A stretch of 64,000 nt of DNA from Rhodohalobacter sp. SW132 (GTDB lineage: Bacteria; Bacteroidota; Rhodothermia; Balneolales; Balneolaceae): contig NZ_QUOK01000002.1 of NCBI RefSeq assembly GCF_003390325.1, forward strand, positions 124,001-188,000. Direction: 5' to 3'. Below the pieces are notes generated by a model. It worked only from the letters and a program-made list of their open reading frames with translations. It made no database searches and had not been told where the DNA came from. Below are positions 8,080 through 43,917 of the stretch, piece by piece. Made by a program: the position numbers and the translations under genes. The stretch's first letter is position 1. Each line of letters opens with the position of its first letter.

Positions 8080-8092
8080 GAAATCTTATCTC

Positions 8093-9827: not shown

Positions 9828-9884
9828 CTTAAGTCACTGGCACCATTTTGAGAGATGTTTCCAGTGATTTTTTTATCAATAACT

Positions 9885-9902: not shown

Positions 9903-9944
9903 CCATACATAAGAAGCTGGAATGCATAAATAGAATATATTTAT

Positions 9945-11069
9945 ATGAATTTTAATCACTCATCACCATTTCTTACTGGATTTTTGATCCTCACACTCTT
10001 ATTTACTGGCTGCACAGAAACTGAAGAAAATGAAAGAGTAATGGAAACGAACATGGAATTATTTGGTCAGCTTGAAGATGGCCGGGACGTGCATCAGTTT
10101 ACACTGAAAAGTGATGCCGGTATTGAGGTTAAAATTATTAATTATGGTGGGATTATCACATCTCTTTACGCACCCGACAAAGATGGTGAACCGGGAAATG
10201 TAGTTCTTGGGTTTGATAATCTTGATGATTACCTGGGAGATCACCCTTATTTTGGTGCACTGATCGGCCGGTTTGGCAACCGGATTGCAGAAGGCCGGTT
10301 TGAACTGGACGGCGAAGAATACCAGCTTGCCACCAACGATGGAGAGAATCATCTACACGGCGGGGAACAGGGTTTTGATAAAGTTCTCTGGGATGCCGAA
10401 TTGGTGGATGACCAAACCCTGCAGTTAACCTATCTGAGTGAGGATGGGGAAGAGGGATATCCCGGGAATCTCGAGGTTACCGTTACATATACTCTCACCG
10501 ATAACGAGCTTGAAATTGATTATCGTGCAGAAACCGATAAGGCCACTCCGGTAAATCTGACGGCACACAGTTATTTTAACCTGACCGGGGATCCATCAAA
10601 CACCATACTCGATCACCAGTTGAAACTCAATGCTGAAAAATTTACCCCGGTAAATGAACAGCTTATCCCAACCGGCGAAATAGCTGAAGTTTCAGGAACG
10701 CCGTTTGATTTTACCGATTCTCACACTATCGGCCAGCGTATTGGGAACGTTGAAGGCGGGTACGATCACAATTTTGTTTTGGATAATGAAAATGGTGAAT
10801 TAATTCTGGCAGCTGAAGTAACGGAGTCTGAGTCGGGCCGGGTACTCTCTGTATACACAACCGAACCTGCAATTCAGTTTTACTCCGGAAATTTTCTGGA
10901 TGGTGAACTCCAAAGTCCGGATGGAGTGTCCTATGAGCAATACAGCGGGTTTTGTTTGGAACCTCAGCATTTCCCTAATTCACCCAATGAACCTTCTTTT
11001 CCATCGACCATATTGCGGCCGGGAGAGATTTATGAGACGAAAACGGTATACTCATTTTCGACTCAATAA
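9945..11069 (+). CDS. galM: Aldose 1-epimerase (mutarotase), lipoprotein form
   Basis: The enzyme interconverts alpha and beta anomers of aldoses such as galactose, glucose, xylose or arabinose. A lipobox LFTGC (Cys 23) places this 374-residue copy at a membrane outside the cytoplasm, as in many Bacteroidota. The GalM fold is clear: NYGGIITSLYAPDKDG near the start, GRFGNRIAEGRF, the His pair in NHLHGG (about 135-137), catalytic His in LTAHSYFNL (about 207), and the catalytic-base Glu in CLEPQHFPNSPNEP (about 338). It is followed after roughly 100 bp by the Nudix regulator gene. Role inferred: preparing the right anomer of imported or surface-released sugar. Confidence 0.93.
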   Translation: MNFNHSSPFLTGFLILTLLFTGCTETEENERVMETNMELFGQLEDGRDVHQFTLKSDAGIEVKIINYGGIITSLYAPDKDGEPGNVVLGFDNLDDYLGDHPYFGALIGRFGNRIAEGRFELDGEEYQLATNDGENHLHGGEQGFDKVLWDAELVDDQTLQLTYLSEDGEEGYPGNLEVTVTYTLTDNELEIDYRAETDKATPVNLTAHSYFNLTGDPSNTILDHQLKLNAEKFTPVNEQLIPTGEIAEVSGTPFDFTDSHTIGQRIGNVEGGYDHNFVLDNENGELILAAEVTESESGRVLSVYTTEPAIQFYSGNFLDGELQSPDGVSYEQYSGFCLEPQHFPNSPNEPSFPSTILRPGEIYETKTVYSFSTQ

Positions 11070-23142: not shown

Positions 23143-26100
23143 ATGAATGGAAAATGGCTACAAAAAAATGACCTCAAGGCAGGATTGACGGGAAGCGCTA
23201 CCGGGATGCTTGCCGCAGGAAATGTCTGGTATAAAGGAATCATCCGAATATCGCTCACCTTCGGATTGATAGCAATAATGGGCGTTTATTCTGCATTTGC
23301 CCAGGATCGGGTAACAATAACAGGAGTTGTTACAGATGCACAGGATGGTTCCTCACTGCCCGGTGTAAATGTAACGGTTCAAGGCTCACAGGAAGCTACC
23401 GGTTCTACAATTGGTACAACCACGAATATGGATGGAGAGTACACCGTACAGGTACCGGGGGAGCTCAATTTTCTTGAGTTTTCTTTTATTGGCTATCAAA
23501 GACAGGTAGTTGAAATTGATGGGCGGACTGAGATAGATGTAGAACTTCAGCAGGATCTTCAGCTTCTGGATGATGTAGTTGTAGTAGGATATGGCACGCA
23601 GGACCGGAGGCAGATTACCGGATCAATTTCCAGCGTTAGTTCTGAAGATTTTGTTACGGGGAATGTGGGTAGTGCTGCTGAACTGATTCAGGGTAAAGTT
23701 CCGGGGCTGAATATTTCGCGCGCCGGTGGAAATCCGAATGAACCTCCAACATTGCGACTTCGGGGTGTTTCCAGTTTTGGCGGGGCACAATCACCGCTGA
23801 TTGTTGTGGATGGAATTGTAGGTGCAGATCTCGCAAACATCGATCCCAACGACATTGAATCGATCGATGTACTTAAAGATGCGTCTGCAGCCGCAATTTA
23901 TGGTACCCGGGGCGGAGCCGGTGTAATCGCGATTACCACAAAGAAAGGGGTTGCCGGTGAAACATCTGTATCCTACAGCGGGTCAATGACCCTAAACGGT
24001 GTGGAAAACAAAGTTGATATGCTGAGTGCAGATGAATTCAGAGAGCTTTCGGAGCTAACACCTTTCGAAATCAATGACTTGGGTGGAAATACAGACTGGT
24101 TTGATGAGATTACACAACGAAGCCATACTCAAATTCACAATCTATCGATCTCTGGGGGAACCCAGGCAACCACTTATAGAGTCTCTGGTAACTTTCGCGA
24201 GAGTCAGGGTCTACTTCGTACAACTGGGTTTGAGCAGTTAGGCGGGCGATTGAACATCAATCATCGCGCTTTAAATGATCAGCTTACACTCACAATTGAT
24301 TTGGGGGCCACGAACCGCGAGGAGGATTACGGTTTTAATAACGCTTTCCGTTATGCTGCAACGTTCAACCCAACCGCACCGGTACGCGCTTCGGGTTTTG
24401 ACAACACTGGCGGATACGTAGAGATTGATGCATTCGACATATTTAATCCCGTTGCCATTGTTGAAACTGCTGAAGATGTACGACAACGACGCCGGCTGAA
24501 CGCCTCGTTCCGGGCCGATTACGAATTTGATCATCTCGTCCCCGGCTTAAGTGCATCAGCATTCTACTCAACTGAAACCTTCTCGGGAACGGAAAACCGG
24601 TTCTGGGCGAGAACCAATAAGTTTACAGGTGGTGCAACAACGTCATCTCTCGGCCGCGGCCAGGCTGAAAGGCTGGCGAGGGATAATAAAAGAGAACAGC
24701 TCGATTTTACCGCTAATTATATAAACACCATTTTTCAGGATCTTCGGGTAGAAACTCTTGCCGGGTACTCATTTCAGGATTTTGAGAGCAGCGGAACCAC
24801 GGTTGCTGGGGGTGACTTTATCTCTGATGCGGTTCGCGCCAACAATCTCGAATTTGCCCAGGATTTCAACAACGGGCTGGGTACAGTTCAGAGTTTCCGA
24901 AACAGCAATCGTCTGATTGCCGGTTTCGGTCGAATCAGCATGAACTGGGATGATACCTATTTCGCCAATGCAAGTATTCGCCGTGAAGGTTCTTCAAGAT
25001 TTGGTGTAAATAACCGATGGGGAACATTCTGGTCAGTCGGGGCAGGCATGGAGGTAACCAACCTGGTTGATTTAGGACTGATAGATCGATTAAGACTTCG
25101 CGGAAGCTATGGGCTTACAGGTCTCGACGCTCCGTTTGATGGTATTTCCAGACTTCGGTTCGCACCAAGAGGAAACTTCTTCGTAGGGGGCAGTTTTGTT
25201 CAGAGTTTCGGCCCGGTTAGTAATGATAACCCGGATCTGAAATGGGAAGAGACTGGCGAGTATAATATCGGGGTGGACTTTTCCATGTTCGATGAACGTC
25301 TTACCGGTATTGTAGAATATTATCAAAAAGTTACTTCTGACCTGATTTTTGAGATCGAAGTTCCGGTACCTCCAAATCTCTTCCCAACATCTTTCATCAA
25401 TGTTGGTGAAATCGAAAATAAAGGGATTGAAGTTACACTCAACTACGATGTACACCGATCACAAAACGCAATGTACAACACAGGTATTACATTCACGACC
25501 TATGAAGTAAACCTGAACCAGTTCGAATCAGATGTTCCGCGATATATCGCGAATGTGGGATCACCCGGCCAGAACAATACTCAGATGGTGCGTCTGCGTG
25601 AAGGTGAGCCTCTCGGGCAGATTTGGGGGCCAAGATTTCACAGCATCGGTGATGACGGCCGCTGGAGATTTATTCCTGCCGAGTGGAATGGTGAATTTGA
25701 CACTCTTCTTTTCAGCGATGAAGTGGCCCGTGAAGATGAGGCTATTATCGGTAACGGAATTCCTGAGTTTGAACTGGGCTGGTCAAATTCCGTTCGGTTC
25801 CGGAACTGGGACTTCAACGCATTTATCCGGGGAGTTTTTGGGCATGATCTCGTAAACAGTACGCGAGTATTCTTCGAGAATCCAATTAACATAACTACCT
25901 ATAACGTTACAAAATCTGCATTTGACCTTATTGATCTGGAATCAGCCCCGGCTTATTCAAGCTACCATGTTGAAGATGCATCATTCATAAGACTGCAAAA
26001 TATGTCTATCGGGTATACTGTGCCTTTGCCCGCTACAAGTATGATCAACCGCCTGCATCTTTCAGTCTCAGGTAACAACCTGTTTACAATTACAGGATAT

Positions 26101-26223
26101 GATGGAATTGATCCCGAAGTGCGCTGGCTGGATGGTGGCGATCCGCTGGCACCGGGAATTGAGCGGAGAGAGCAATGGTATTCCGCACGCTCATTTACCT
26201 TCGGAATTAATCTTGATTTTTAA
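23143..26223 (+). CDS. SusC/RagA-family TonB-linked outer-membrane transporter (SusC2)
   Basis: A 1026-residue SusC-type importer. The N-terminus is long: about 30 polar residues precede the hydrophobic signal core (ISLTFGLIAIMGVYSAFAQ, cleavage near 51). The carboxypeptidase-regulatory-like domain is at about 55-135 (GVVTDAQDGSSLPGVNVTV). The plug shows DDVVVVGYGTQ, LIVVDGIVG, IESIDVLKDASAAAIYGTRGGAGVIAITT. The barrel ends in FGINLDF. No STN domain is present. The upstream region holds a LacI-type operator, so control is likely by a sugar-responsive repressor or activator rather than anti-sigma signalling. SusD2 starts 18 bp after the stop. Confidence 0.95.
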   Translation: MNGKWLQKNDLKAGLTGSATGMLAAGNVWYKGIIRISLTFGLIAIMGVYSAFAQDRVTITGVVTDAQDGSSLPGVNVTVQGSQEATGSTIGTTTNMDGEYTVQVPGELNFLEFSFIGYQRQVVEIDGRTEIDVELQQDLQLLDDVVVVGYGTQDRRQITGSISSVSSEDFVTGNVGSAAELIQGKVPGLNISRAGGNPNEPPTLRLRGVSSFGGAQSPLIVVDGIVGADLANIDPNDIESIDVLKDASAAAIYGTRGGAGVIAITTKKGVAGETSVSYSGSMTLNGVENKVDMLSADEFRELSELTPFEINDLGGNTDWFDEITQRSHTQIHNLSISGGTQATTYRVSGNFRESQGLLRTTGFEQLGGRLNINHRALNDQLTLTIDLGATNREEDYGFNNAFRYAATFNPTAPVRASGFDNTGGYVEIDAFDIFNPVAIVETAEDVRQRRRLNASFRADYEFDHLVPGLSASAFYSTETFSGTENRFWARTNKFTGGATTSSLGRGQAERLARDNKREQLDFTANYINTIFQDLRVETLAGYSFQDFESSGTTVAGGDFISDAVRANNLEFAQDFNNGLGTVQSFRNSNRLIAGFGRISMNWDDTYFANASIRREGSSRFGVNNRWGTFWSVGAGMEVTNLVDLGLIDRLRLRGSYGLTGLDAPFDGISRLRFAPRGNFFVGGSFVQSFGPVSNDNPDLKWEETGEYNIGVDFSMFDERLTGIVEYYQKVTSDLIFEIEVPVPPNLFPTSFINVGEIENKGIEVTLNYDVHRSQNAMYNTGITFTTYEVNLNQFESDVPRYIANVGSPGQNNTQMVRLREGEPLGQIWGPRFHSIGDDGRWRFIPAEWNGEFDTLLFSDEVAREDEAIIGNGIPEFELGWSNSVRFRNWDFNAFIRGVFGHDLVNSTRVFFENPINITTYNVTKSAFDLIDLESAPAYSSYHVEDASFIRLQNMSIGYTVPLPATSMINRLHLSVSGNNLFTITGYDGIDPEVRWLDGGDPLAPGIERREQWYSARSFTFGINLDF

Positions 26224-26241: not shown

Positions 26242-27897
26242 ATGAATAAAAGAATGAAAACGTACAAAAAACGAACATTTGCATGGCTTCTTCTCCTGCC
26301 GGTCCTTTGGATAGGATCGTGTACGGATCTGACCGAAACCGTTCATAACCAGGTAACCGCCGATCAGTTTTTTCAAACTGATGAGGAGTTTATTTCAGCC
26401 CTGGGTGATGCATACGGGCCGATGACCAGCTTCGGTGGAAACTGTTGTGTAACGGCAATAAATGAAGTATCCAGCGATGAAATTGTGGTAACACAAAAGG
26501 GTGCTGACTGGGAAGATGGCGGCGTGTGGATTCGGCTGCATCGCCATACATTTACTCCGTCTGATGACGTGATTAACAACACATGGAACAATTTTTTCAG
26601 TGGTGTTGGTAATGCCAATCGACTGATTTTTCAATTTGAAACGGTTGTTGAGGCTGGTAATGTAAGTGAAGAAGATGCCGCTGCATTTATTGGTGAATTA
26701 AGGGCGCTGAGGGCATTTTACTACTACCAGCTGCTGGATAATTTTGGCAATGTTCCCATTGTAACCAGTTTTGAAGGGGCACCTGAAAGTCCGCCACAAC
26801 CCAGTACTGATTTTCAGCAGGGCCGCACCGAAGTGTTCAATTTTGTTGAACAAGAACTGCTGGAAGTACTTGACCAGGTGGATACCGATGTGAACGCTAC
26901 ACTTGGAAGAGTGAATCGTTGGGTTGTTCACATGACGCTGGCTAAACTCTACCTGAATGCTGAAGTCTACACCGGACAACCACGCTGGGAGGATGTTATT
27001 ACACATACGGATGCAATCATCGATTCTGGTAATTTTAATCTATTGGTTGATTACTCAGAGAACTTTATCGTAAATAACACCGGCAGCGCGGAGCATATAT
27101 TTACGATCCCATTTAATGAGATTTTCCTGGGAGGATTTCAGCTTCATGTGATGACAAACCACATTCTCAGCCAGCCCGCGTTTAATTTTGGTGAGCAGCC
27201 GTGGAACGGCTTCCAAACCGTTGCTGATTTTTATGAATCGTATATCGATCCGGATCAAAATCCGGGTCCACAGGGAGAGGTTGTTGGGATGAGCCCTACC
27301 GGGGATATGACCACGGGTACGCTCGACAACAGACTCAGTAATTTCCTGGTCGGACCGCTTCTGGATCTTCAGGGTAATCAAATTGAAGACCCGGGTGTTG
27401 AGAGTTCCGACCCTGTCGGTCCTCCGATTGTTCATACTCCATACATCAATGAATTGGCACCTGGTGGCTGGAGACAGGCAGGAGCCCGTATTGCCAAATA
27501 TGAGATGGAGATCGGGTTAAGTGGGGCCAGTATGAATAACGACATGGTGATTTATCGCTATTCAGATGTTCTTCTGATGAAAGCAGAAGCTCTCTGGAGA
27601 ATGAACCCATCCGATACGGATGCCCTGATGCTGGTAAACGAAATCCGAAACCGTGCCGGAGTGGATCCTTTTGATAATTTGGACGCTGACAGACTCCTGG
27701 CCGAAAGGGGCCGTGAACTCTTCTGGGAGGTCGTTAGACGGCAGGATCTGATTCGCTTCGAAGGCAATACCGGACTAACTCGCTTTAACGATCCATGGTG
27801 GGAAAAAACGTCCAACAATCCGGACCGAAATGTATTTCCAATACCACAAAATCAGTTAGAAGCAAACTCAAGCCTGGTTCAGAATCCGGGATATTAA
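26242..27897 (+). CDS. SusD/RagB-family outer-membrane lipoprotein (SusD2)
   Basis: This 551-residue SusD-type partner of SusC2 has lipobox WIGSC (Cys 27) followed by TDLTETVHNQVT, nearly the same opening as SusD1 (TDLSENVYDQIT). Family segments are RALRAFYYYQLLDNFGNVPIVTSF, ALWRMNPSD in the C-terminal helices, RGRELFWEVVRRQDLIRF, and the closing QNPGY. SusD1 and SusD2 share so much local wording (HRH...W, LYLNAEVYTG) that they probably bind related ligands (inference). The gene ends the SusCD2 transcript at a strong terminator 28 bp on. Confidence 0.94.
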   Translation: MNKRMKTYKKRTFAWLLLLPVLWIGSCTDLTETVHNQVTADQFFQTDEEFISALGDAYGPMTSFGGNCCVTAINEVSSDEIVVTQKGADWEDGGVWIRLHRHTFTPSDDVINNTWNNFFSGVGNANRLIFQFETVVEAGNVSEEDAAAFIGELRALRAFYYYQLLDNFGNVPIVTSFEGAPESPPQPSTDFQQGRTEVFNFVEQELLEVLDQVDTDVNATLGRVNRWVVHMTLAKLYLNAEVYTGQPRWEDVITHTDAIIDSGNFNLLVDYSENFIVNNTGSAEHIFTIPFNEIFLGGFQLHVMTNHILSQPAFNFGEQPWNGFQTVADFYESYIDPDQNPGPQGEVVGMSPTGDMTTGTLDNRLSNFLVGPLLDLQGNQIEDPGVESSDPVGPPIVHTPYINELAPGGWRQAGARIAKYEMEIGLSGASMNNDMVIYRYSDVLLMKAEALWRMNPSDTDALMLVNEIRNRAGVDPFDNLDADRLLAERGRELFWEVVRRQDLIRFEGNTGLTRFNDPWWEKTSNNPDRNVFPIPQNQLEANSSLVQNPGY

Positions 27898-28049: not shown

Positions 28050-31000
28050 ATGAATAAGTCGCAGTCTATCTTTTTCAGTTTTGTGATGATTCTGTTTTTA
28101 GTGCACTGTTCTTCTTCCGAAGATGCAGAGACAGATCCCAGTCTTTTTGAACGCTTGCCATCCTCCGTTACCGGTATTGAGTTTGAAAACCGGCTCTACC
28201 CCACAGAAGAGTTTAACATGTATGTGTTTCGCAATTTTTATAATGGCGGGGGAGTCGCTATAGGCGATGTCAGCGGAAATGGTCTTCCCGATATTTTTTT
28301 TGGCGGAAATATGGTTTCCAACCGGCTCTATCTGAACAAAGGTAATTTCGAATTTGAGGATATTACCGAACAGGCCGGCCTGCTTTCTGATGGAATCTGG
28401 ACCACCGGCGTGAGTATGGTTGACATTAACGGGAATGGCCTGCTTGACATTTATATCACAAAATCAGGTCCGCCGGAAGGGGAGAGACGTTATAATGAAC
28501 TCTTTATTAACAACGGAGATCTGACCTTTACCGAAAAAGCGGAAGAGTATGGCCTGGCTGAAATTGGACTTTCGACACATGCTGTATTTTTTGATTATGA
28601 TGGAGATGGTCTGCTGGATATGTACCTGTTAAATAATTCTTTTGATCCGGTTGGGAACTACGATGGAGTGACGGGTGAATCGAGAAAGATCTACGATCCT
28701 CATGGCGGCAGCAAACTTTTCAAAAACGAGGGCGGACGATTTACAGATGTTACCGAGAAAGCAGGTATTTACGGGAGTAGAATCGGGTTTGATTTAAGCG
28801 CATCCATTGCTGATTTCAACCGCAACGGTCTGCCGGATATTTACGTGGCAAATGATTTTTTTGAACGCGATTATCTCTACCTGAACAATGGAGATGGAAC
28901 GTTTCGTGAAGTTCTTGAGGATAAAATGCGGAGTATAAGCTCAAGTTCGATGGGCTCTGATGCTGCTGATCTAAATAATAACGGATGGCCGGATATCTAT
29001 GTCGCAGATATGCTACCGTATTCAGAAGAGCGCAGAAAATCGAAAATGAATTATGAAACGGAAGATGAGTACCGGGAAAGCTTTGAAAAAGGATTTCACC
29101 ATCAATTTACACGAAATACTTTTCAGATGAACAACGGAGACGGAACGTTTTCTGAGGTCAGCCGGCTCACAGAAACAGAGGCTACGGACTGGAGCTGGGC
29201 AGTTCTGATCGCCGATTTCGATCACAGCGGCCACAACGATATTTATGTTACAAACGGAATTTACAAAGATTTGCTTGATCAGGATTATCTTGAGTATACC
29301 TCAAATCCCTCCAGAATTACTGAAATCATAGAAACAACGCCTGATCGTGTGATTATGTCACTCATGGATATCATCCCTTCGGAGCCTGTGGGGAATGTAC
29401 TGTTTTCGGGAGAGGGGGAGATGGGGTTTCGGGACAGCAGCGAGGCGTGGGGCCTGGGTGAGCCGGGATTTTCGAGCGGTGCGGCGTGGTCCGACCTGAA
29501 CGGGGACGGGGCTCTGGACCTGGTGGTCAGCGATGTGAACGGCCCGGCCCGGATCTATCGCAACCGCACCGCAGAGCTTCGCCCGGACCACCGCTGGCTG
29601 CGTGTGGACCTTGAGGGAACCGCGCCCAACACGCAGGCGATCGGCGCGCAGCTGCAGGTGTGGGCCGGCGGGCGGCAGTGGTACCGCGAGCAGATGCTCC
29701 AGCGGGGCTTCCAGTCGAGCGTGGAGCCGGGGCTTTTTGTGGGCCTTGGGGAGATCTCCCGCGTGGATTCGCTGGTGCTGCGCTGGCCGGACGGGCAAAC
29801 CAGCCGGGCGGCAGACCTGGAGCTGCCGGCCCGGATCACCCTGCGCCAGGCGGAGGGTGAAGAACGTCCGGCCCCGCCCCCGGGACTGGCCGTACTTCCG
29901 GGCGATTTCCAGAACCTGCAAGAGTCCGAAGCGGAGCGGAGGTCCCGGCAGCGTTCAGGGGCAGAGGACCTGACAGAGTTGAGCGAATGCGAACCCTGTA
30001 AGAGTCCGGATATCGGGGCGGAAATTCATGACACAGACGCTCATTCATCCGACTCTGGCAGGAACGCAAAAGAGCGTGCTCTGCCAGGTCGTTCGTGGCT
30101 TCAGCCGGTGGAACTCCCTCCGCTGAGCGACCGGGCCCACGAGCGCTACCCGTACAGCGACTTCACCCGCGAGCGGCTGCTGGTGCACATGCGCTCGTCG
30201 GAAGGCCCGGCCCTGTGCACCGGGGACGTGACGGGCAACGGGCTGTCCGATGTCTACATCGGCGGGGCGCGGGGGCAGTCCGGGGCGCTCTACCTGCAGG
30301 ATGGCGGCGGCTTCCGCGAGCAGACCCCGGCGTCGCTCACCGGCGACGCCGCCTCAGAGGATACCGACTGCGCGCTTTTTGACGCCACGGGCAACGGACA
30401 CCTTGACCTGTACGTAGCCAGCGGGGGCAACTCCTTTTCGAGCAGCTCCTCGGCGCTGATGGACCGCCTGTATTACGGGGACGGCAGCGGCGGGTTTGAG
30501 CGATCAGGCCAGGTCCTGCCGACCCGGAGCCGGTATGTGAGCAGCTCGACGGTGGCGGTGGGCGACCTCACGGGCAACGGGCACGCGGACCTGTTCGTGG
30601 GCGAGCGGCTTCGGCTGTTTTCGGTGGGCCTGCCGGCGGGCGGCTACCTGCTGGAGGGTGACGGTCAGGGGCAGTTCCGGGACGTGACCGGGCAGTGGGC
30701 GCCGGAGCTGGGCGAGCTGGGGATGATCACCTCCGCGGTGTGGACCGACTGGACAGGCGACGGGCGCGATGACCTGGTGGTGACCGGCGAGTGGATGTCC
30801 CCGAAGGTGTTTGCCAACCGCGGGGACCGCCTGGAGAACATCAGCGCAGACCTGGGCCTGGAAGAAGTAACCGGTTGGTGGAACGCGGTGCACGCAGCTG
30901 ACCTGAGCGGGAACGGCCTGCCGGACCTGGTGCTGGGTGGCCACGGGCTGAACTCGCAGTTTCGCGCAAGTGAAGAATCCCCGGTGCGGATGTGGGCGGG

Positions 31001-31592
31001 CGACCTGCAGGGCAACGGAATGGTGGAGCAGCTGCTGAGCATGCCGCGGGAGGGGCGCGACTACCCGGTGGCGCTGCGCCACGATTTGATTGATGAGATT
31101 CCCACGCTTCGGGAGGCCTACCCGGACTATGCGAGCTACGGGGGGCAGACGGTTCAGGATGTAATCGAGGCGGGTGGGCTGTCGCCGTCGGTGGAGCTGC
31201 AGGCTGCGGAGCTGGCCAGCGTGGTGGTGTGGAACGAAGGAGGCGGGCAGGTGCGTGTGGAGCGTATGCCGCTGCGGGCGCAGCTGTCGCCGGTGTACGG
31301 GATCTGGAGCGGCGACCTGAGTGGGGACGGCCGCCCGGAGGTTGTGCTGGGGGGCAACCTGCACGAGGTGAAGCCGATAGCAGGTCCGTATGACGGAAGC
31401 TTCGGCGTGGTGCTGTCTGCAGGAGAATCGGGGGAGCTGACCGCTTATCATCCGGAGCAGAGCGGGTTTCGGGTGCGCGGGGCGGTGCGCCGGATCGCGG
31501 CAGTGGAAGGCGCCGAAGGACAGAAGTGGCTGATCGCCGTCCGCAACAACGACACTCCGGTTCTCTTTAAAATGAATCAGAAAAATAATTAA
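28050..31592 (+). CDS. Giant FG-GAP/ASPIC surface lipoprotein, paralog A
   Basis: An 1180-residue protein with a signal segment ending LVHC (atypical His at -1) and an acidic SSSEDAETD tail. Two FG-GAP propeller regions (about 60-490 and 690-1150) flank an ASPIC/UnbV-like module (about 513-590: HRWLRVDLEG, FQSSVEPGLFVGLGE, DSLVLRWPDGQ). The opening FENRLYPTEEFNMYVFRNFYNGGGVAIGDVSGNGLPDIFFGGN is shared with paralogs B and C. From 29368 to its end the DNA becomes strikingly GC-rich and nearly identical to the end of paralog B. Function is unknown; position right after SusCD2 suggests a surface partner that binds or processes the imported ligand. Confidence 0.88.
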   Translation: MNKSQSIFFSFVMILFLVHCSSSEDAETDPSLFERLPSSVTGIEFENRLYPTEEFNMYVFRNFYNGGGVAIGDVSGNGLPDIFFGGNMVSNRLYLNKGNFEFEDITEQAGLLSDGIWTTGVSMVDINGNGLLDIYITKSGPPEGERRYNELFINNGDLTFTEKAEEYGLAEIGLSTHAVFFDYDGDGLLDMYLLNNSFDPVGNYDGVTGESRKIYDPHGGSKLFKNEGGRFTDVTEKAGIYGSRIGFDLSASIADFNRNGLPDIYVANDFFERDYLYLNNGDGTFREVLEDKMRSISSSSMGSDAADLNNNGWPDIYVADMLPYSEERRKSKMNYETEDEYRESFEKGFHHQFTRNTFQMNNGDGTFSEVSRLTETEATDWSWAVLIADFDHSGHNDIYVTNGIYKDLLDQDYLEYTSNPSRITEIIETTPDRVIMSLMDIIPSEPVGNVLFSGEGEMGFRDSSEAWGLGEPGFSSGAAWSDLNGDGALDLVVSDVNGPARIYRNRTAELRPDHRWLRVDLEGTAPNTQAIGAQLQVWAGGRQWYREQMLQRGFQSSVEPGLFVGLGEISRVDSLVLRWPDGQTSRAADLELPARITLRQAEGEERPAPPPGLAVLPGDFQNLQESEAERRSRQRSGAEDLTELSECEPCKSPDIGAEIHDTDAHSSDSGRNAKERALPGRSWLQPVELPPLSDRAHERYPYSDFTRERLLVHMRSSEGPALCTGDVTGNGLSDVYIGGARGQSGALYLQDGGGFREQTPASLTGDAASEDTDCALFDATGNGHLDLYVASGGNSFSSSSSALMDRLYYGDGSGGFERSGQVLPTRSRYVSSSTVAVGDLTGNGHADLFVGERLRLFSVGLPAGGYLLEGDGQGQFRDVTGQWAPELGELGMITSAVWTDWTGDGRDDLVVTGEWMSPKVFANRGDRLENISADLGLEEVTGWWNAVHAADLSGNGLPDLVLGGHGLNSQFRASEESPVRMWAGDLQGNGMVEQLLSMPREGRDYPVALRHDLIDEIPTLREAYPDYASYGGQTVQDVIEAGGLSPSVELQAAELASVVVWNEGGGQVRVERMPLRAQLSPVYGIWSGDLSGDGRPEVVLGGNLHEVKPIAGPYDGSFGVVLSAGESGELTAYHPEQSGFRVRGAVRRIAAVEGAEGQKWLIAVRNNDTPVLFKMNQKNN
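29368..31579. repeat. GC-rich duplicated block, copy in paralog A
   Basis: 2212 bp encoding the ASPIC module and second propeller of paralog A. Nearly identical to 33643-35911. Its base use (runs such as GGCCTGCCGGACCTGGTGCT) differs sharply from the more AT-rich first half of the same gene. Confidence 0.85.
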
Positions 31593-31775
31593 GCGTATAG
31601 ACTATGAATCGATTCATAATCTTACTAATTACCTTTTACCGAGTGAAATTAATGTTTTTGAATTGTTTTATTCAGTTGAAAACTGAACATGAATACAGAA
31701 AATTATACATTTCAATTTCTTAAGCACACTCTTATCATCAATTTAATATCATCGAAATCGAAACAGACAAATCTT

Positions 31776-32315
31776 ATGAAGTACCTCGTTTTCATCACAA
31801 TTATCTTCAGCTTAATTGCGTGTGATCAGAGAAGCGATTACGAACGTCTTATTCAGGACGGCCAACGCTCCGATGTTCGTCACGACTCACTTTTTCTCGG
31901 TTATGAACTTGGAATGGAACAGCAGCAATTCCTCGATCATAGCTGGCAGTTGAACCAGGAAGGTTTAATTACCGGCGGCACACAAATTGAGTACCGGCTC
32001 ACAGACCTTTCATATGATGCACGGATGGTATTCTATCCGCATTTCGAAAATGGTAAGATTTATAAGATGCCGATTGAGATATCCTACAATTCCTGGGCAA
32101 TCTGGAATCGTGAACTCTACTCAGAACACATGATCAATGACCTCCTTGAATACTATGAAAATATTTACGGAACCGGGTTCAGGCAGGTCGATCATCCGGT
32201 GCTAAACCGCCAGGTATGGATGAAGGTTGACGGGAACCGAAAAATAGTAATCTATCCTAAAGATGATATGATTACCCGGGTTGAATTTACGGATCTGTCA
32301 GTCCAAAAAGAATAA
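31776..32315 (+). CDS. Small lipoprotein of unknown function
   Basis: From this ATG the product has 179 residues and opens with a normal lipoprotein signal: MKYLVFITIIFSLIAC, Cys 16, then DQRSDYERL. The ATG at 31689 would add 29 residues that spoil the signal peptide, so I reject it. The mature part mixes charged and aromatic residues, with repeated Tyr/Trp motifs (SYNSWAIWNRELYSEHM, LLEYYENIYGTGF), and predicts as one compact alpha/beta domain. I recognise no family. It sits between the two giant paralogs, and its stop codon directly abuts the ATG of paralog B, so the two are translationally linked. Confidence 0.75.
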   Translation: MKYLVFITIIFSLIACDQRSDYERLIQDGQRSDVRHDSLFLGYELGMEQQQFLDHSWQLNQEGLITGGTQIEYRLTDLSYDARMVFYPHFENGKIYKMPIEISYNSWAIWNRELYSEHMINDLLEYYENIYGTGFRQVDHPVLNRQVWMKVDGNRKIVIYPKDDMITRVEFTDLSVQKE

Positions 32316-35300
32316 ATGGAAATTATGAAACTGTTGGGAGACAATCGTATATCATATGTTGCCTTCATTATTTCTATATTGATTTTCTCTGCATCCTGCA
32401 CTTCCGAAACGCATGATGAAGTGCTTTTTGAGAAACTTTCGCAAGATCAAACCGGAATTGATTTCGAAAACAAGCTCTCATTTGATCCCGATTTTAATAT
32501 CTACAGATATAGGAATTTCTATAACGGCGGCGGAGTGGCTGCGGGTGATATAAGCGGAAACGGACTTCCTGATCTTTTCTTTATCGGTAATATGGAGCCG
32601 AATCGTCTTTACCTGAATAAGGGCGATTTTACGTTTGAAGATGTAACCGAATATGCCGGTGTGGCCGGATCGATGGGATGGTCAACCGGTGTAAGCCTGG
32701 TCGATATCAACGGTAACGGATTGCTCGATATATACGTGACAAACTCCGGGCTTTTTGATGAAGATGAGAGAAGAAACGAGCTTTTCATAAATAACGGGGA
32801 TTTGACCTTTACTGAAAGTGCAGCAGAGTACGGACTGGACGATCCGGGCTTTGCGATTCATGCGATCTTTTTCGATTACGATGGTGATGGGGATCTCGAT
32901 ATGTATCTGCTGAATAACTCAAACCGCGCGATCAGCAGTTTTGATATCAGTGAAAATCTGCGCGATGTTCGGGATGAGCATGGCGGAGATAAATTATTCA
33001 GAAATGATAACGGTACGTTTGTTGATGTCTCTGAAGAAGCGGGCATATATGGGAGCGAAATTGGGTTTTCATTAAGTGCATCCATCGCCGACATCAACCG
33101 CAACGGCCTGCCGGATATTTACGTGGCAAATGATTTTTTTGAACGTGATTATCTCTATCTGAATAACGGAGACGGTACCTTCCGTGAAGTTCTGGATGAA
33201 CAGATGCGAAGCATCAGTGCGGCTTCAATGGGTTCTGATATTGGGGATCTCAACAACAACGGATGGCCCGATATTTACGTATCGGATATGCTTCCCCAAT
33301 CAAACCGCCGTCTGAAAACAATGACTACATTTGAGGACTGGGACCGATATACGGAGAAGGTGGAGTACGATTACGGTCACCAGTTTACACGAAATGCTTT
33401 TCAGATGAACAACGGAGACGGAACGTTTTCTGAGGTCAGCCGGCTCACAGAAACAGAGGCTACGGACTGGAGCTGGGCGGTTCTGATCGCCGATTTCGAC
33501 CACAGCGGCCACAACGATATTTACGTTACAAACGGTTTATTACAGGATATCACCAATCTCGATTATCTTGGGGATATACGATCACCTGATATGGTTCGGT
33601 CGATTGTTACTGGCGAAGGTGCCGACTTTGAAGAGCTAATCAATATCATCCCTTCGGAACCTGTGGGGAATGTACTGTTTTCGGGAGAGGGGGAGATGGG
33701 GTTTCGGGACCGCAGTGAGGCGTGGGGCCTGGGCGAGCCGGGATTTTCGAGCGGTGCGGCGTGGGCCGATCTGAACGGGGACGGGGCTCTGGACCTGGTG
33801 GTCAGCGATGTGAACGGCCCGGCCCGGATCTACCGCAACCGCACCGCAGAGCTCCGCCCGGAGTACCGCTGGCTGCGTGTGGATCTGGAAGGTAAAGCGC
33901 CCAACACGCAGGCGATCGGCGCGCAGCTGCAGGTGTGGGCCGGCGGGCGGCAGTGGTACCGCGAGCAGATGCTCCAGCGGGGCTTCCAGTCGAGCGTGGA
34001 GCCGGGGCTTTTTGTGGGTCTTGGGGAGACTACCCGCGTGGATTCGCTGGTGCTGCGCTGGCCGGACGGGCAGACCAGCCGGGCGGCAGACCTGGAGCTG
34101 CCGGCCCGGATTACCCTGCGCCAGGCGGAGGCTGAAGATCGTCCGGCCCCGCCACCGGGCCTGGCCGTACTTCCGGGCGATTTCCAGAACCTGCAAGTGT
34201 CCGAAGCGGAGCGGAGGTCCTGGCAGCGTTCGGGGGCAGAGGACCTGAAAGAGTTGAGCGAATGCGAAACCTGTAAGAGTCCGGATATTGGGGCGGAAAT
34301 TCATGACACAGACGCTGACAGGACCCCGGAAAACGCGGGGGCGCTTTCAGGTCAGCGTTCGGGGCCGGAGGCTCATTCATCCGACTCTGGCAGGAACGCA
34401 AAAGAGCGTGCTCTGCCAGGTCGTCCGTTGCTCCAGCCTGCGGAACTCCCTCCGCTGAGCGACCGGGCCCACGAGCGCTACCCCTACAGCGACTTCACCC
34501 GCGAGCGGCTGCTGGTGCACATGCGCTCGTCGGAAGGCCCGGCCCTGTGCACCGGGGACGTGACGGGCAACGGGCAGTCCGATGTCTACATCGGCGGGGC
34601 GCGGGGGCAGTCCGGGGCGCTCTACCTGCAGGATGGCGGCGGCTTCCGCGAGCAGACCCCGGCGTCGCTCACCGGCGACGCCGCCTCAGAGGATACCGAC
34701 TGCGCGCTTTTTGACGCCACGGGCAACGGACACCTTGACCTGTACGTAGCCAGCGGGGGCAACTCCTTTTCGAGCAGCTCCTCGGCGCTGATGGACCGCC
34801 TGTATTACGGGGACGGCAGCGGCGGGTTTGAGCGATCAGGCCAGGTCCTGCCGACCCGGAGCCGGTATGTAAGCAGCTCGACGGTTGCGGTGGGTGACCT
34901 GACGGGCAACGGGCACGCGGACCTGTTCGTGGGCGAGCGGCTGCGGCTGTTTTCGGTGGGCCTGCCGGCGGGCGGCTACCTGCTGGAGGGCGACGGTCAG
35001 GGGCAGTTCCGGGACGTGACCGGGCAGTGGGCGCCGGAGCTGGGCGAACTGGGGATGATCACCTCCGCGGTGTGGACCGACTGGACGGGCGACGGGCGCG
35101 ATGACCTGGTGATAACCGGCGAGTGGATGTCCCCGAAGGTGTTTGCCAACCGCGGAGGCCGCCTGGAGAACATCAGCGCAGACCTGGGCCTGGAGGAAGT
35201 AACCGGCTGGTGGAACGCGGTGCATGCAGCTGACCTGAGCGGGAACGGCCTGCCGGACCTGGTGCTGGGCGGCCACGGGCTGAACTCGCAGTTTCGCGCA

Positions 35301-35927
35301 AGTGAAGAATCCCCGGTGCGGATGTGGGCGGGCGACCTGCAGGGCAACGGGATGGTGGAGCAGCTGCTGAGCATGCCGCGGGAGGGGCGCGACTACCCGG
35401 TGGCGCTGCGCCACGATCTGATTGATGAGATTCCCACGCTGCGGGAGGCCTACCCGGACTATGCGAGCTACGGAGGGCAGACGGTGCAGGATGTGATCGA
35501 GGCGGGCGGGCTGTCGCCATCGGTGGAGCTGCAGGCTGCGGAGCTGGCCAGCGTGGTGGTGTGGAATGAAGGAGGCGGGCAGGTGCGTGTGGAGCGACTG
35601 CCGCTGCGGGCGCAGCTGTCGCCGGTGTACGGGATCTGGAGCGGCGACCTGAGCGGGGACGGCCGCCCGGAGATTGTGCTGGGGGGCAACCTGCACGAGG
35701 TGAAGCCGATCGCAGGACCGTATGACGGAAGCTTCGGCGTGGTGCTGACTGCAGGAGAAACGGGGGAGCTGACCGCTTATCATCCGGAGCAGAGCGGGTT
35801 TCGGGTGCGCGGGGCGGTGCGCCGGATCGCGGCAGTGGAGGGCGCCGAAGGACAGAAGTGGCTGATCACCGTACGCAATAACGACACTCCGGTTCTCTTT
35901 AAAATGAATCAATCTGAAGAACCGTAA
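32316..35927 (+). CDS. Giant FG-GAP/ASPIC surface lipoprotein, paralog B
   Basis: A 1203-residue copy with the same plan as paralog A: lipobox SASC followed by TSETHDEV, FG-GAP region, ASPIC/UnbV-like module (about 512-590), second FG-GAP region. The first 440 residues have diverged from A, while 33643-35911 is almost the same DNA as 29368-31579 apart from a 57-bp in-frame insertion in the linker (34317-34373). The in-frame ATG at 32325 gives a better lipoprotein signal (MKLLGDNRISYVAFIISILIF) and may be the real start. It is translationally coupled to the small lipoprotein. Ligand or reaction is unknown. Confidence 0.88.
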   Translation: MEIMKLLGDNRISYVAFIISILIFSASCTSETHDEVLFEKLSQDQTGIDFENKLSFDPDFNIYRYRNFYNGGGVAAGDISGNGLPDLFFIGNMEPNRLYLNKGDFTFEDVTEYAGVAGSMGWSTGVSLVDINGNGLLDIYVTNSGLFDEDERRNELFINNGDLTFTESAAEYGLDDPGFAIHAIFFDYDGDGDLDMYLLNNSNRAISSFDISENLRDVRDEHGGDKLFRNDNGTFVDVSEEAGIYGSEIGFSLSASIADINRNGLPDIYVANDFFERDYLYLNNGDGTFREVLDEQMRSISAASMGSDIGDLNNNGWPDIYVSDMLPQSNRRLKTMTTFEDWDRYTEKVEYDYGHQFTRNAFQMNNGDGTFSEVSRLTETEATDWSWAVLIADFDHSGHNDIYVTNGLLQDITNLDYLGDIRSPDMVRSIVTGEGADFEELINIIPSEPVGNVLFSGEGEMGFRDRSEAWGLGEPGFSSGAAWADLNGDGALDLVVSDVNGPARIYRNRTAELRPEYRWLRVDLEGKAPNTQAIGAQLQVWAGGRQWYREQMLQRGFQSSVEPGLFVGLGETTRVDSLVLRWPDGQTSRAADLELPARITLRQAEAEDRPAPPPGLAVLPGDFQNLQVSEAERRSWQRSGAEDLKELSECETCKSPDIGAEIHDTDADRTPENAGALSGQRSGPEAHSSDSGRNAKERALPGRPLLQPAELPPLSDRAHERYPYSDFTRERLLVHMRSSEGPALCTGDVTGNGQSDVYIGGARGQSGALYLQDGGGFREQTPASLTGDAASEDTDCALFDATGNGHLDLYVASGGNSFSSSSSALMDRLYYGDGSGGFERSGQVLPTRSRYVSSSTVAVGDLTGNGHADLFVGERLRLFSVGLPAGGYLLEGDGQGQFRDVTGQWAPELGELGMITSAVWTDWTGDGRDDLVITGEWMSPKVFANRGGRLENISADLGLEEVTGWWNAVHAADLSGNGLPDLVLGGHGLNSQFRASEESPVRMWAGDLQGNGMVEQLLSMPREGRDYPVALRHDLIDEIPTLREAYPDYASYGGQTVQDVIEAGGLSPSVELQAAELASVVVWNEGGGQVRVERLPLRAQLSPVYGIWSGDLSGDGRPEIVLGGNLHEVKPIAGPYDGSFGVVLTAGETGELTAYHPEQSGFRVRGAVRRIAAVEGAEGQKWLITVRNNDTPVLFKMNQSEEP
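33643..35911. repeat. GC-rich duplicated block, copy in paralog B
   Basis: 2269 bp. The 57-bp excess over the other copy is exactly the in-frame insertion at 34317-34373; otherwise there are only scattered substitutions. Both borders coincide with ATATCATCCCTTCGG on the left and AAAATGAATCA on the right. Confidence 0.85.
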
Positions 35928-38416: not shown

Positions 38417-41400
38417 ATGGCAATACGATATTCAGAATTATTATTACTCTCTCTTTCCTTATTTCTGATTTTATTTTTTGCCGGCTGCAGCAGTGAAGCG
38501 GATACACATTTTTCACTTCTGTCCACCTCCAAAACAAATATCGATTTTGAAAACCAGGTTACGAGTACGCCTGAGTTTAACATCGTAAACTACATGTATT
38601 TTTATGATGGTGCCGGAGTTGCAGCCGGTGACCTGAATAACAATGGCCTGCCGGATCTCTTTTTCGTGGGAAACGAAGAACCGAATAAACTATATTTCAA
38701 CCGGGGAGATTTTCAGTTTGAAGATGTCACCGAAACGACCGGGGTTGGCGGCGATCCCGGTTCGTGGTCAACCGGCGTGACCATGGCTGATGTGACCGGA
38801 AACGGTTACCTGGATATCTACATCAGCCGGGTCAACTATCTTACGAAATCAGGGCCAAATCAATTTTTTGTGAATAACGGCGATGGCACATTCACCGAAC
38901 GGGCAGCTGACTATGGCATCGATTTTGAAGGATATTCCACGCAGGCTGCTTTTTTTGACTATAACAAAAATGGCCGGCTCGATCTTTTTATCCTGAACCA
39001 TTCGTTTCACAGCGAAAGAACGTATGGTCCGGTTGATGTACTCCGCGATATTCACGATCCAAAAGCTGGTGACCGGCTTTTTCGAAATGAAGGAGATCAT
39101 TTTACCGATGTAACGGAAGAAGCGGGAATCATAAGCAGTGCTCTGGGATACGGCCTGGGCCTGGCGATCAGCGACATCAACAAAAACGGCTGGCCCGATA
39201 TTTACATCGGCAACGATTTTCATGAAAATGATTATCTCTACATCAATAACGGGGACGGCACATTTACCGAATCACTTTATGAATCGATCGGCCATACAAG
39301 CGGATCATCCATGGGAAATGATATTGCCGACATCACAAATGACGGTTATCCCGACATCGTATCCCTGGATATGATGCCGGAAGATCACAACTCATTTATG
39401 AGATCAGGCGGACCGGATCTGACTGTTGTAGCCGAAACCAAGGCTAATTTTGGATTTGGTGATAAAAATGCCCGAAACACCGTTCAGATTCACCGGGGAA
39501 TGGCGCCCGATGGTCGTCCGGTTTTCAGCGAACTTGCCTTCACCCTCGGAATGGCAAAGACAGACTGGAGCTGGGCATCCCTTTTTGCTGATTTTGATAA
39601 CAGCGGTTATAAAGACCTTTTTATAAGTAACGGTATGGTGCGCAGACCGAATGACCTGGATTATATCCGGCGTGTCGGGGATTTTCGGGAACGGAGTACG
39701 GAAGGAACCGTATCGGACGAAGAGTTTGAATCGATTCAGTTCATGCCGCCGATCTATATTCCGAATTACATCTACAAAAATCATGGAGAACTTCAGTTTG
39801 AAAATACCACGGAAGAGTGGGGGATAGATCAGCCATCATACTCCAGCGGTGCTGTACATGCGGATCTGAACGGCAATGGAATGCTCGATCTTGTTGTAAG
39901 TAATGTTAATATGCAAACTTTTGTATATCGAAATAATGCTGAGGTTGACTCTCTTCACAATTATCTGAAAGTCTCCTTTTCCGGCAGCCGGATGAACAGC
40001 ACTGGAATCGGGACGAAAGTTATACTGTACAAAAATGATGAAATTTTCTACCAGGAGCAGTATCCCACCCGTGGATTTCAATCTTCGGTGGATCATGTCC
40101 TCCATTTTGGGCTTGGGTCTCATGCTGAAATCGATTCACTCTTGGTCGTCTGGCCGGATGACACATACCAGACCATTTATGATATCTCATCAAACCAAAA
40201 GCTAAGTCTCGATCATCAGGATGCCGGCGGGAGTTTCGACTACACCAGGCTTCACAGAAGTTATGAGAATGCTTTGGTTGAAAATGTCACCCACGATTTC
40301 TCTATCGATTTTGAACATCAGGAAAATACACACAACGATTTTTCCCAGGAACCTCTGATTCCCTATAAAATGAGCAGAATGGGTCCGGCAGTGGGGATAG
40401 GTGATGTGACCGGAAATGGCCGCGATGACATTTTTATGGGAAATGCGCATCGAAATCGCTCGGTGCTCTACCTTCAAAATGAGGCCGGTGATTTTACGTC
40501 ATCGAATGAAACCTTGTTCACAGCAGATGCGAGATATGAGGATGTGAGCGCCCATTTTTTCGATGCAACCGGCAATGGATCTCTCGATCTCTATGTAGTG
40601 AGCGGAGGAGGTCAGCTTTTTGAAACGAATGAGCTATTTATGGACCGGCTCTACATAAATGACGGAGACGGAAGTTTTGAGCGGTCAGAAGGGCGGTTAC
40701 CCGACCTGAGAAATAACGGCAGTGTGGCTGTAAGTTCAGATTTTAATGGAGATGGAAGTCTCGATCTGTTTGTGGGAGCCCGGTCGAGGCCGTGGTATTA
40801 TGGTGTGTCACCGGAGAATGTTTTACTGCAGAATGACGGGACAGGGCGATTTCAGGATGTGACCGATGAAGCGGCCCCCGGACTCAGAGACATCGGAATG
40901 ATTACAGATGCAGCCTGGGCGGATATTACCGGAAACGGTTATGATGATCTTATCCTGGCGGGTGAGTGGATGCCGGTAACCGTTTTTGAAAACAGGGGAG
41001 GGAATTTAGTGAACATAACAGAAGATCTCGGTTTTAACGAGCTCAGCGGATTGTGGCAGTCGATTACTGTTGATGATCTGAACGGAAACGGTGATTTGGA
41101 TATCATTGCCGGAAATTTTGGGACCAACTCACGGCTGCAGGCGGACGAAGATCATCCGCTTAAGCTTTTTGTGAATGATTTTGATGAAAGCGGATATACA
41201 TCGGGATTAATTTCGAGAAGAGTTGACGGAAAAGATGTGCCGTTTGAACAGCTGGATGAACTGTTACAGGAGTTTCCGCAGCTCACGCAACAAATTACCA
41301 GTTATGTGGATTTTGCATCGAAATCGGTGCAGGAGCTATTCGGCCGGGAGGCGATCGATGATGCTCAGACCCTTGAAATCCGTGAGCTTCGTTCCATGAT

Positions 41401-41755
41401 TTTTTGGAATACCGGTGATGGCAGTTTTGATGTCCAGCCTCTGCCTGTGATGGCTCAATCGTTTCCTATAAATGCAGTTGAGATACATGAAGATTCTGAA
41501 AATAGAAAACATCTCCTGGCAGCCGGAAATCATTATCATGTGAAACCGAGTATGGGTGGTCGGCAGGATGCCGGGTATGGCCTTCATTTGATTTATGATC
41601 CGGAAATCGGGTTCAAAACGTTGAATCTTCAGGAGAGCGGATTCTTCACGGAAGGCGTAGCCAGATCTATAAATACAGTGGATATTGGCGGAGAAATGTA
41701 TTATTTGGTAGGGAAGAATAATTCCGCGCCGGAGCTCTTCAGATTTACCGAGTGA
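38417..41755 (+). CDS. Giant FG-GAP/ASPIC surface lipoprotein, paralog C
   Basis: An 1112-residue relative of paralogs A and B with the same order: lipobox FFAGC (Cys near 25), FENQVTSTPEFNIVNYMYFYDGAGVAAGDLNNNGLPDLFFVGNEE, first propeller, ASPIC/UnbV-like module (about 514-590, YLKVSFSGSRMNSTGIGTKVILY, LHFGLGSHAEIDSLLVVWPDD), second propeller (about 660-1100). It lacks the GC-rich composition of A and B and is only moderately similar in sequence, so it represents the ordinary form for this genome. The DUF1080 gene begins 38 bp downstream, linking this lipoprotein class with keto-glycoside processing (inference). Confidence 0.88.
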   Translation: MAIRYSELLLLSLSLFLILFFAGCSSEADTHFSLLSTSKTNIDFENQVTSTPEFNIVNYMYFYDGAGVAAGDLNNNGLPDLFFVGNEEPNKLYFNRGDFQFEDVTETTGVGGDPGSWSTGVTMADVTGNGYLDIYISRVNYLTKSGPNQFFVNNGDGTFTERAADYGIDFEGYSTQAAFFDYNKNGRLDLFILNHSFHSERTYGPVDVLRDIHDPKAGDRLFRNEGDHFTDVTEEAGIISSALGYGLGLAISDINKNGWPDIYIGNDFHENDYLYINNGDGTFTESLYESIGHTSGSSMGNDIADITNDGYPDIVSLDMMPEDHNSFMRSGGPDLTVVAETKANFGFGDKNARNTVQIHRGMAPDGRPVFSELAFTLGMAKTDWSWASLFADFDNSGYKDLFISNGMVRRPNDLDYIRRVGDFRERSTEGTVSDEEFESIQFMPPIYIPNYIYKNHGELQFENTTEEWGIDQPSYSSGAVHADLNGNGMLDLVVSNVNMQTFVYRNNAEVDSLHNYLKVSFSGSRMNSTGIGTKVILYKNDEIFYQEQYPTRGFQSSVDHVLHFGLGSHAEIDSLLVVWPDDTYQTIYDISSNQKLSLDHQDAGGSFDYTRLHRSYENALVENVTHDFSIDFEHQENTHNDFSQEPLIPYKMSRMGPAVGIGDVTGNGRDDIFMGNAHRNRSVLYLQNEAGDFTSSNETLFTADARYEDVSAHFFDATGNGSLDLYVVSGGGQLFETNELFMDRLYINDGDGSFERSEGRLPDLRNNGSVAVSSDFNGDGSLDLFVGARSRPWYYGVSPENVLLQNDGTGRFQDVTDEAAPGLRDIGMITDAAWADITGNGYDDLILAGEWMPVTVFENRGGNLVNITEDLGFNELSGLWQSITVDDLNGNGDLDIIAGNFGTNSRLQADEDHPLKLFVNDFDESGYTSGLISRRVDGKDVPFEQLDELLQEFPQLTQQITSYVDFASKSVQELFGREAIDDAQTLEIRELRSMIFWNTGDGSFDVQPLPVMAQSFPINAVEIHEDSENRKHLLAAGNHYHVKPSMGGRQDAGYGLHLIYDPEIGFKTLNLQESGFFTEGVARSINTVDIGGEMYYLVGKNNSAPELFRFTE

Positions 41756-42582: not shown

Positions 42583-42606
42583 TTGATTCAATATCAATCA
42601 AATTCA

Positions 42607-42660
42607 GAGCAGGAAACAGACTGTAAGAAGGCCGGTTTGTTTCTGCTCACATTTTTTTTC
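42607..42660 (+). terminator. Rho-independent terminator after DUF1080 gene
   Basis: GAGCAGGAAACA and TGTTTCTGCTC form an imperfect stem with a long loop, followed by AC and eight T residues. Confidence 0.75.
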
Positions 42661-43356
42661 ATCAGGATTTCTTACGTTACATTCAGGATAGTAGTCGTTT
42701 CAAAATCTCTCCTTACCTATCCTGTTCACTCACCAATTGAACATGAATAACTTCGGCCGAAGTGTTCTTATGAAATCATCCAAATGATCAAAACCTGTAT
42801 AGAGTGATTTCAGACTCTCGTTGTATTCATATATTTAATTTATAGTTTCAATAATAAAAATGTGAAAATATAATGCACTAAAGATAAATATTGATATCAT
42901 AATAATGTTTATATGTTATATAAAAACGTAATTTATATTAATAAACAATGTTGTTTTGTTAAGGTTAACATAGAGAGGTTGATTACTGAAATTGTAAAAC
43001 TTATGATCAGTAAGAATATGAAAAATATAGACTTGTGAATTTGTCCCGAAAGTGTATTTAATACACTCTTTATTCTTTAGTTATAATTTGTTAATTAAAG
43101 AGAGGAGCTAAAATGTGAGGGAAATTCAATCGAAATTTTCTCTCAGCCATTCAGATGAACAATTAAAAAAATTGGGTTTATCACAACACGTATTGGATTT
43201 CTAATCTGAAGTAAACTGTACTATGGAGCAGGAGTGAATAGTGTTGTTGATTCATATGTGTAATATTATATAAATAATAAAACATATCATTTATATTGAA
43301 ATAATTTATAAAAAAACATAATTGTATCAATATTAAAAGTATTAATTTTGTTTGAT
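42661..43356. other. AT-rich intergenic region before the ECF sigma gene
   Basis: About 700 bp of very AT-rich sequence. Apart from the possible small frame at 43115 and a GTTAAGGTTAAC inverted repeat near 42960, I see no gene, RNA or clear promoter. It presumably holds the promoter of the sigma/anti-sigma operon. Confidence 0.5.
43115..43204 (+). CDS. Possible 29-residue small ORF before the ECF sigma gene
   Basis: A GTG start is preceded 7 bp upstream by GAGGAG (43102-43107), one of the best Shine-Dalgarno matches in the window. The product contains SLSHSDEQLKKLGLSQHV and stops at TAA. It is hydrophilic with no signal sequence. It may be a leader peptide, the remnant of a larger gene, or chance. 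I recognise no family, and conservation has not been tested. Confidence 0.3.
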   Translation: MREIQSKFSLSHSDEQLKKLGLSQHVLDF

Positions 43357-43917
43357 ATGCATTCAGAATCTCATAAAAAATTATGGTTAAGATATGTGGA
43401 AGGCGATTATAGCGTCTACAAAAAAATATTTGAATCTTACTATAGTGGGCTTTTTGGCTATGGAATGAAGTTATGCAATGATTCGACCATTGTTGAGGAT
43501 AGTATCCAGGATGTTTTTATTTATATCTGGGAAAAAAGAGAGGATTTAATGCATATCAATTCACCAAATGTATATTTGTTCGTATCACTCAGGAGAAAAA
43601 TTATCAAAAGAAGAAATAAGTATCGTAATAAAAAGAAAATAAAAGATGGGGATTTCTTCATTGAGTTTGGTGTTGAAGAAATTATGATAAACAAAGAGAT
43701 AAGGGATGAACAGAAAGAGGAGCTTCATAAGGCGTTGAATTTACTTTCCAATCAACAGAAAGAGGTACTGTTCTTACATTATTACAACGGGATGAGCTAT
43801 GGTGAAATTGAGGAAATCCTTTCTATAAACAGGCAGTCTGTTCGAAACCATATGTACCGGGCAATAAGTACACTTAGATCTGCACTCAACAAAAATACTC
43901 TTCGCCTTGTTGTTTGA
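43357..43917 (+). CDS. ECF-type RNA polymerase sigma-70 factor
   Basis: From this ATG the product has 186 residues; a TTG 9 bp upstream is a possible alternative. Region 2 reads YKKIFESYYSGLFGYGMKLCNDSTIVEDSIQDVFIYIWEKRE (about 18-60). Region 4 is the helix-turn-helix NLLSNQQKEVLFLHYYNGMSYGEIEEILSINRQSVRNHMYRAISTLR (about 128-175). This is the FecI-like Bacteroidota group paired with FecR anti-sigma proteins. Together with the FecR gene and the STN-domain SusC3 downstream it forms a trans-envelope switch: substrate at SusC3 should release the sigma factor to drive the SusC3/SusD3 genes. Confidence 0.93.
   Translation: MHSESHKKLWLRYVEGDYSVYKKIFESYYSGLFGYGMKLCNDSTIVEDSIQDVFIYIWEKREDLMHINSPNVYLFVSLRRKIIKRRNKYRNKKKIKDGDFFIEFGVEEIMINKEIRDEQKEELHKALNLLSNQQKEVLFLHYYNGMSYGEIEEILSINRQSVRNHMYRAISTLRSALNKNTLRLVV

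Follow-up and report, generated by a model that had tools for sequence, protein, structure and literature searches.

Background

Mammalian histone and Hsp70 genes are concertedly evolving paralogs in which the converted tract has raised GC3. In bacteria, GC-biased gene conversion was proposed on the basis of recombining sequence being GC-raised independently of codon selection (Lassalle et al. 2015, PMC4450053), while according to another author no such bias has been seen in bacterial genomes (PMC8153448), and the matter is treated as an open issue in a review of 2022 (PMC9348620). Much of the existing evidence consists of genome-wide correlation. In M. tuberculosis, local GC content was not associated with the frequency of paralogous conversion (PMC13061034).

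In this work, we describe two adjacent genes, A and B, of Rhodohalobacter sp. SW132, located in a window of 64,000 nucleotides, which is the whole stretch of DNA analysed (contig NZ_QUOK01000002.1, positions 124,001 to 188,000, forward strand; all positions below are those of the window). Like the eukaryotic GC-rich converted paralogs (histone, Hsp70), they have raised GC3 in the converted tract, but this is a bacterial tandem pair, there is no meiosis, and half of each gene converts. The locus resembles the M. tuberculosis system in being a case of intragenomic conversion between bacterial paralogs, and the data of PMC4450053 in the raised GC of recombining sequence. The latter signal is, however, a genome-wide trend of gene GC against intragenic recombination, whereas here we noticed a step of ~24 points within one gene, which is tied to paralogous conversion and recurs in relatives. 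In the literature searched, which was covered in part, we found no earlier description of a GC step over half a gene that goes with conversion between bacterial paralogs. The GC-rich block is probably explained by recurrent GC-biased gene conversion between tandem paralogs.

Results

Organization of the locus

Genes A and B and a third paralog, C, encode full-length FG-GAP_3/UnbV_ASPIC proteins, each with a lipoprotein-type N-terminus and with profile scores above the curated Pfam cut-offs of the UnbV_ASPIC / FG-GAP family. The features, all on the + strand, are given below with their basis in brackets.

23143..26223, +: SusC/RagA-type TonB-dependent outer-membrane protein, upstream of A (TIGR04056, Pfam)
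26242..27897, +: SusD-type lipoprotein, upstream of A (Pfam SusD_RagB)
28050..31592, +: gene A, A-type paralog; lipoprotein in which two FG-GAP propellers flank an ASPIC/UnbV domain (ORF, Pfam, A-type clade of the front tree)
28050..29367, +: front of A, ~43% GC, diverged from B (GC, codon alignment)
29368..31579, +: back of A, homogenised, 68% GC, GC3 0.81 (GC, codon alignment)
29898..30086 (A) and ~34173-34430 (B), +: lineage-specific disordered linker within the block, missing in most homologues (GC3, AlphaFold model)
31689..32315, +: ORF of 208 aa between A and B, without family match (ORF, Pfam/TIGR profile search)
32316..35927, +: gene B, architecture as in gene A; B-type paralog (ORF, Pfam, front tree)
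32316..33642, +: front of B, ~45% GC (GC, codon alignment)
33643..35911, +: back of B, homogenised, 68% GC, GC3 0.80 (GC, codon alignment)
38417..41755, +: paralog C, architecture as in A and B, unhomogenised, GC3 0.46 throughout; internal control (Pfam, GC, alignment)

A and B are ancient and probably functionally distinct surface-lipoprotein paralogs adjoining the SusC/SusD pair. Directly after the cluster lies an AT-rich stretch of ~27% GC (window 42600-43900), far under the genome mean.

Identity of the two genes and the GC step

In a codon alignment, the nucleotide identity of A and B was 0.64 in the front and 0.96 in the back; most windows of the front fell at 0.47-0.81, and those of the back at 0.92-1.00. 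This agrees with the first-pass annotation, in which 29368-31579 and 33643-35911 were described as nearly identical DNA behind diverged fronts, and as richer in GC than the fronts and neighbours, with the third paralog not so enriched (measured here: 68% vs ~44%; C flat). Equal identity of the N-terminal halves once aligned, an alternative which it had raised in favour of simple duplication, was not found. It had missed an additional near-identical patch in the front, at ~29085-29290 (identity 0.77-0.89), which has nearly ordinary GC and is probably a separate recent conversion.

Along the genes, GC rises abruptly from 0.43-0.45 in the fronts to a level of 0.68. The step was placed at codon 452 in A (support 437-461; nucleotide ~29403, 29358-29430) and codon 455 in B (444-465; ~33678, 33645-33708), with a log-likelihood gain of 92-100, and GC drops to background at the stop codon, where the tract ends. 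GC3 changes from ~0.45 in the front to ~0.80 in the back, and GC1 and GC2 also rise. Peak GC was 0.685 and 0.687 in the two blocks, compared with at most 0.566 in any other of the 6,628 one-kb windows surveyed in the genome (1.66 Mb; mean 0.452, sd 0.042). The block DNA searched against the whole genome matched at A and B only, apart from a chance-like 43-base match. Since C is homologous along its full length and has a flat GC3 of ~0.46, the block is no inserted module; it is the normal back of the gene, changed in its composition.

Protein context and rejected causes of the GC rise

In the AlphaFold model of A (mean pLDDT 82, pTM 0.84), the GC step falls within a domain, behind a helical insert and where the last blade of propeller 1 starts with its first strands, and the converted half spans this last blade, the ASPIC domain, the linker and propeller 2. 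The best match in both sequence and fold was CRTAC1 (PDB 9etn), which is alike in its propeller and ASPIC fold; unlike it, the bacterial lipoproteins carry a second propeller and adjoin SusC/SusD. Amino-acid composition in the block moves toward G, A, R and P (GARP 0.35 vs 0.22 in C; FYMINK 0.13 vs 0.26 in C). The linker, which in B has an insertion of ~20 aa relative to A, has a GC3 of ~0.58 vs 0.84 in the block core, as expected if this lineage-specific part had less time for GC gain.

Several candidate causes were tried and rejected. Import of a domain module was ruled out, since the step lies inside propeller 1. Antisense ORFs in the block are no longer than in synonymous shuffles, which speaks against overlapping antisense genes as the cause. 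The search for a Chi-like recombination motif gave only weak k-mer enrichment versus synonymous shuffles (CGGGCA, ACGGGCA), perhaps tied to repeated DGNG-type motifs. Translational selection was judged unlikely, as whole-gene GC3 is <=0.68 in all other surveyed genes, compared with 0.81 in the block and 0.43 in the front on the same mRNA.

Different histories of the front and back halves

The first-pass annotation had suggested looking for phylogenetic discordance between the halves, and it is seen: fronts group by type and backs by genome (below, G000 is the Rhodohalobacter sp. SW132 genome studied here and other G numbers are relatives). In the front-half tree, the A-type and B-type fronts form two clades, each with several genera and both spanning families f1 and f4, so the A/B duplication is older than these families. 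In the back-half tree, copies pair within their own genome on short branches in G000, G103 and G013. Within-genome pairing of the backs combined with ancient fronts indicates concerted evolution of the back half, recurrent in separate lineages: the paralogs predate speciation, yet, by trees and pair identities, their backs are closer within a genome than to orthologs. The alignment and the GC step also show the mosaic junction between a converted back and an unconverted front. That the back halves of A and B evolve in concert by gene conversion is well supported by these comparisons, and the term gene-converted, one of two options offered in the first-pass annotation, is supported for the block.

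Coincidence of GC rise and homogenisation in relatives

Both copies were available in 13 genomes, comprising 3 homogenised and 10 unhomogenised pairs. The GC3 difference, back minus front, was +0.36, +0.29 and +0.09 in the homogenised pairs (3/3) and from -0.04 to +0.03 in the unhomogenised ones (10/10), giving a Mann-Whitney exact p=0.0035 that is uncorrected for relatedness, is based on only three fully assembled homogenised pairs and includes G000 and G103, which may have a partly common history. Rank correlation across all 13 pairs was weak (p=0.09 and 0.04). Raised GC thus goes with conversion of the tract and is lacking where orthologs are unconverted (3/3 vs 0/10), as GC-biased conversion predicts, with G003 and the B-type copy of G037 as exceptions. 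Concerted evolution and the GC step coincide across relatives.

In G103, which has 61% protein identity to G000, the GC-rich tract and a perfect repeat of 2,118 bp coincide. The steps in A and B of G000 and in G003, G103 and G097 were all placed between codons 444 and 455 of the respective gene. In the GC-raised G028, G096, G097, G107 and G001, contigs break off within the block, and in the GC-raised G015 one contig ends in the gene front and another apparently in the block. These breaks are indirect signs of near-identical copies, which break short-read assemblies, although chance breaks occur in fragmented assemblies too, and the G058 assembly breaks there without a GC rise. In Aquimarina and other Bacteroidota, tandem arrays of ASPIC genes were unhomogenised and had no GC step.

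As for the exceptions, GC3 is highest (0.86) in G003, of the same genus, where a single copy was detected, a B-type front is lacking and the assembly does not break. It is possible that the partner copy was lost or is missing from this MAG (89% complete, 7% contamination). The B-type copy of G037 has a GC3 of 0.73 vs a background of 0.59 and is unhomogenised.

Two further loci were noted. At L152 (G086, 3358-10171), the A- and B-type genes are convergent, with ends ~23 bp apart, and they are unhomogenised without a GC step; an inversion may have ended conversion there. The GC-raised block of L150 (G107:C61) is interrupted by a TAA in frame, which may reflect decay of the copy or a mistake in the assembly.

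Other homogenised DNA of the same genome was compared. In a flagellin-like tandem trio (G000:C1:321569-325319, L215), the outer two copies are identical over 1,130 bp and their GC3 is 0.49 vs 0.43 in the third, a slight rise only, and several intragenic repeats have no GC rise. The effect is thus not general for homogenised DNA in this genome, and long-lasting conversion may be required.

Age of the GC-rich state and direction of substitutions

The blocks of G000, G003 and G103 are at ~57-61% protein identity, yet GC3 is 0.74-0.86 in all of them, and their agreement at four-fold sites, 0.51-0.60, is little above the 0.40-0.45 predicted from composition. Such deep divergence with GC3 kept points to a maintaining force, since drift to ~0.46 would otherwise be expected. 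Judged from these sequences, the high GC of the block is old and maintained, not freshly imported.

In G013, changes unshared between the copies are mostly S to W (68 vs 35 at third positions; polarisation is imperfect, as the outgroup is 25% away), and the equilibrium which they imply, ~0.41, lies below the standing 0.53. As these copy-specific changes are AT-directed, a mutation bias at the locus would not account for the GC rise, and the gain is placed in the shared, converted fraction. Polarised A/B differences in G000 (6 W>S vs 15 S>W with two outgroups, 15 vs 21 with one) are underpowered.

On the coding strand, G contributes more to the gain than C does, with four-fold C/(C+G) of 0.33 in the G000 block vs 0.47 expected, 0.38 in G003 and 0.36 in G103; only in G097 is it symmetric. 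A symmetric gain of G and C, as against host preference, is a prediction of the simplest GC-bias model and not part of a strict definition, and it was not what we observed. The host's own high-GC3 genes also lean to G.

Discussion

In the proposed mechanism, the adjacent direct copies would pair in their second halves and one copy would overwrite the other by gene conversion, repeatedly. If the mismatches arising in conversion were resolved more often to G or C, long concerted evolution could drive the converting tract far above the genome base composition, and the edges of the GC tract would be sharp because they mark the sites where conversion stops. The fronts would stay apart because their divergence blocks pairing, and selection probably keeps them different, maintaining two specificities. 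Judged from composition, a repair bias during conversion is the likely rather than proved cause of the GC rise; the scaled bias implied at four-fold sites (log-odds of S, back minus front or genome) would be ~1.2 to 2.1.

A different order of events, which we consider improbable but would not neglect, lets high GC precede homogenisation: the half gene would be kept GC-rich by selection or by some local process, such as RNA structure, translation or recombination between alleles of different strains, and GC-rich DNA, recombining more, would then be homogenised as a by-product. G003 and the B-type copy of G037 are GC-raised without a homogenised partner, and the excess of G in codon use continues a tendency of the host's high-GC3 genes. 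Together with the slight or absent GC rise of the other repeats, these observations keep this order, or a contributing allelic exchange between strains, among the candidates. It fits poorly, however, with a step lying within one mRNA and one protein domain, with the shift of GC1, GC2 and amino-acid composition, with the lack of a front-to-back step in every unconverted pair and with the AT-directed copy-specific changes in G013.

Import of the block, as the first-pass annotation had it in its other option, is unlikely, and more so than the preceding reading. Here one copy would have received a GC-rich back in a single event, a GC-rich relative being the donor in homologous recombination, and this back would then have been copied to the neighbour. 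The block does differ sharply from the genome in GC and codon use, and codon use is alike among the GC-rich blocks of G003, G103 and G097 (correlation 0.85-0.92). Nevertheless, its closest relatives are found in genomes of the same order, several of them with ordinary GC, the back is collinear with normal-GC orthologs, and identities outside the order are <= ~48%. Neither a peptide-pattern scan of 84,980 species genomes nor a search of 394 genomes of the phylum, both limited in sensitivity, found a closer relative outside the order or a closer or GC-rich donor. The same GC-rich half has the same step at the same site in the lineages at ~57-61% protein identity, in which four-fold sites agree little more than composition predicts; an ancient import would have ameliorated. 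Import also gives no account of the raised GC in G013/G028, a lineage with a separate origin of homogenisation.

We attach very little probability to protein module swap or phase variation, with a constant back end and interchangeable N-terminal propellers varying specificity, as also supposed in the first-pass annotation. Differing fronts do stand on one back, in surface lipoproteins beside SusC/SusD, but there are two front types only, each a stable and ancient orthologous lineage in the front tree, the surroundings of the block showed no additional cassettes for fronts, and the boundary cuts propeller 1 ahead of its last blade. Simple recent tandem duplication with fast-diverging fronts, which would suit the high identity of the backs, is excluded, since A- and B-type fronts group with orthologs of other genera and families, and it leaves GC unexplained.

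Returning to GC-biased conversion between the tandem copies, converting and non-converting parts occur here in the same gene, and relatives carry both versions, which makes a controlled comparison on GC bias. Such a pair offers an unusual opportunity to ask in nature if gene conversion in bacteria is biased towards G and C. We lean, with some reserve, towards regarding it as a replicated natural demonstration of bacterial intragenomic GC-biased conversion, by which half a gene went from 45% to 68% GC and the protein was reshaped. If this is true, a GC island in a bacterial genome is not necessarily a sign of horizontal transfer, and repair bias, rather than selection, can shift protein composition.
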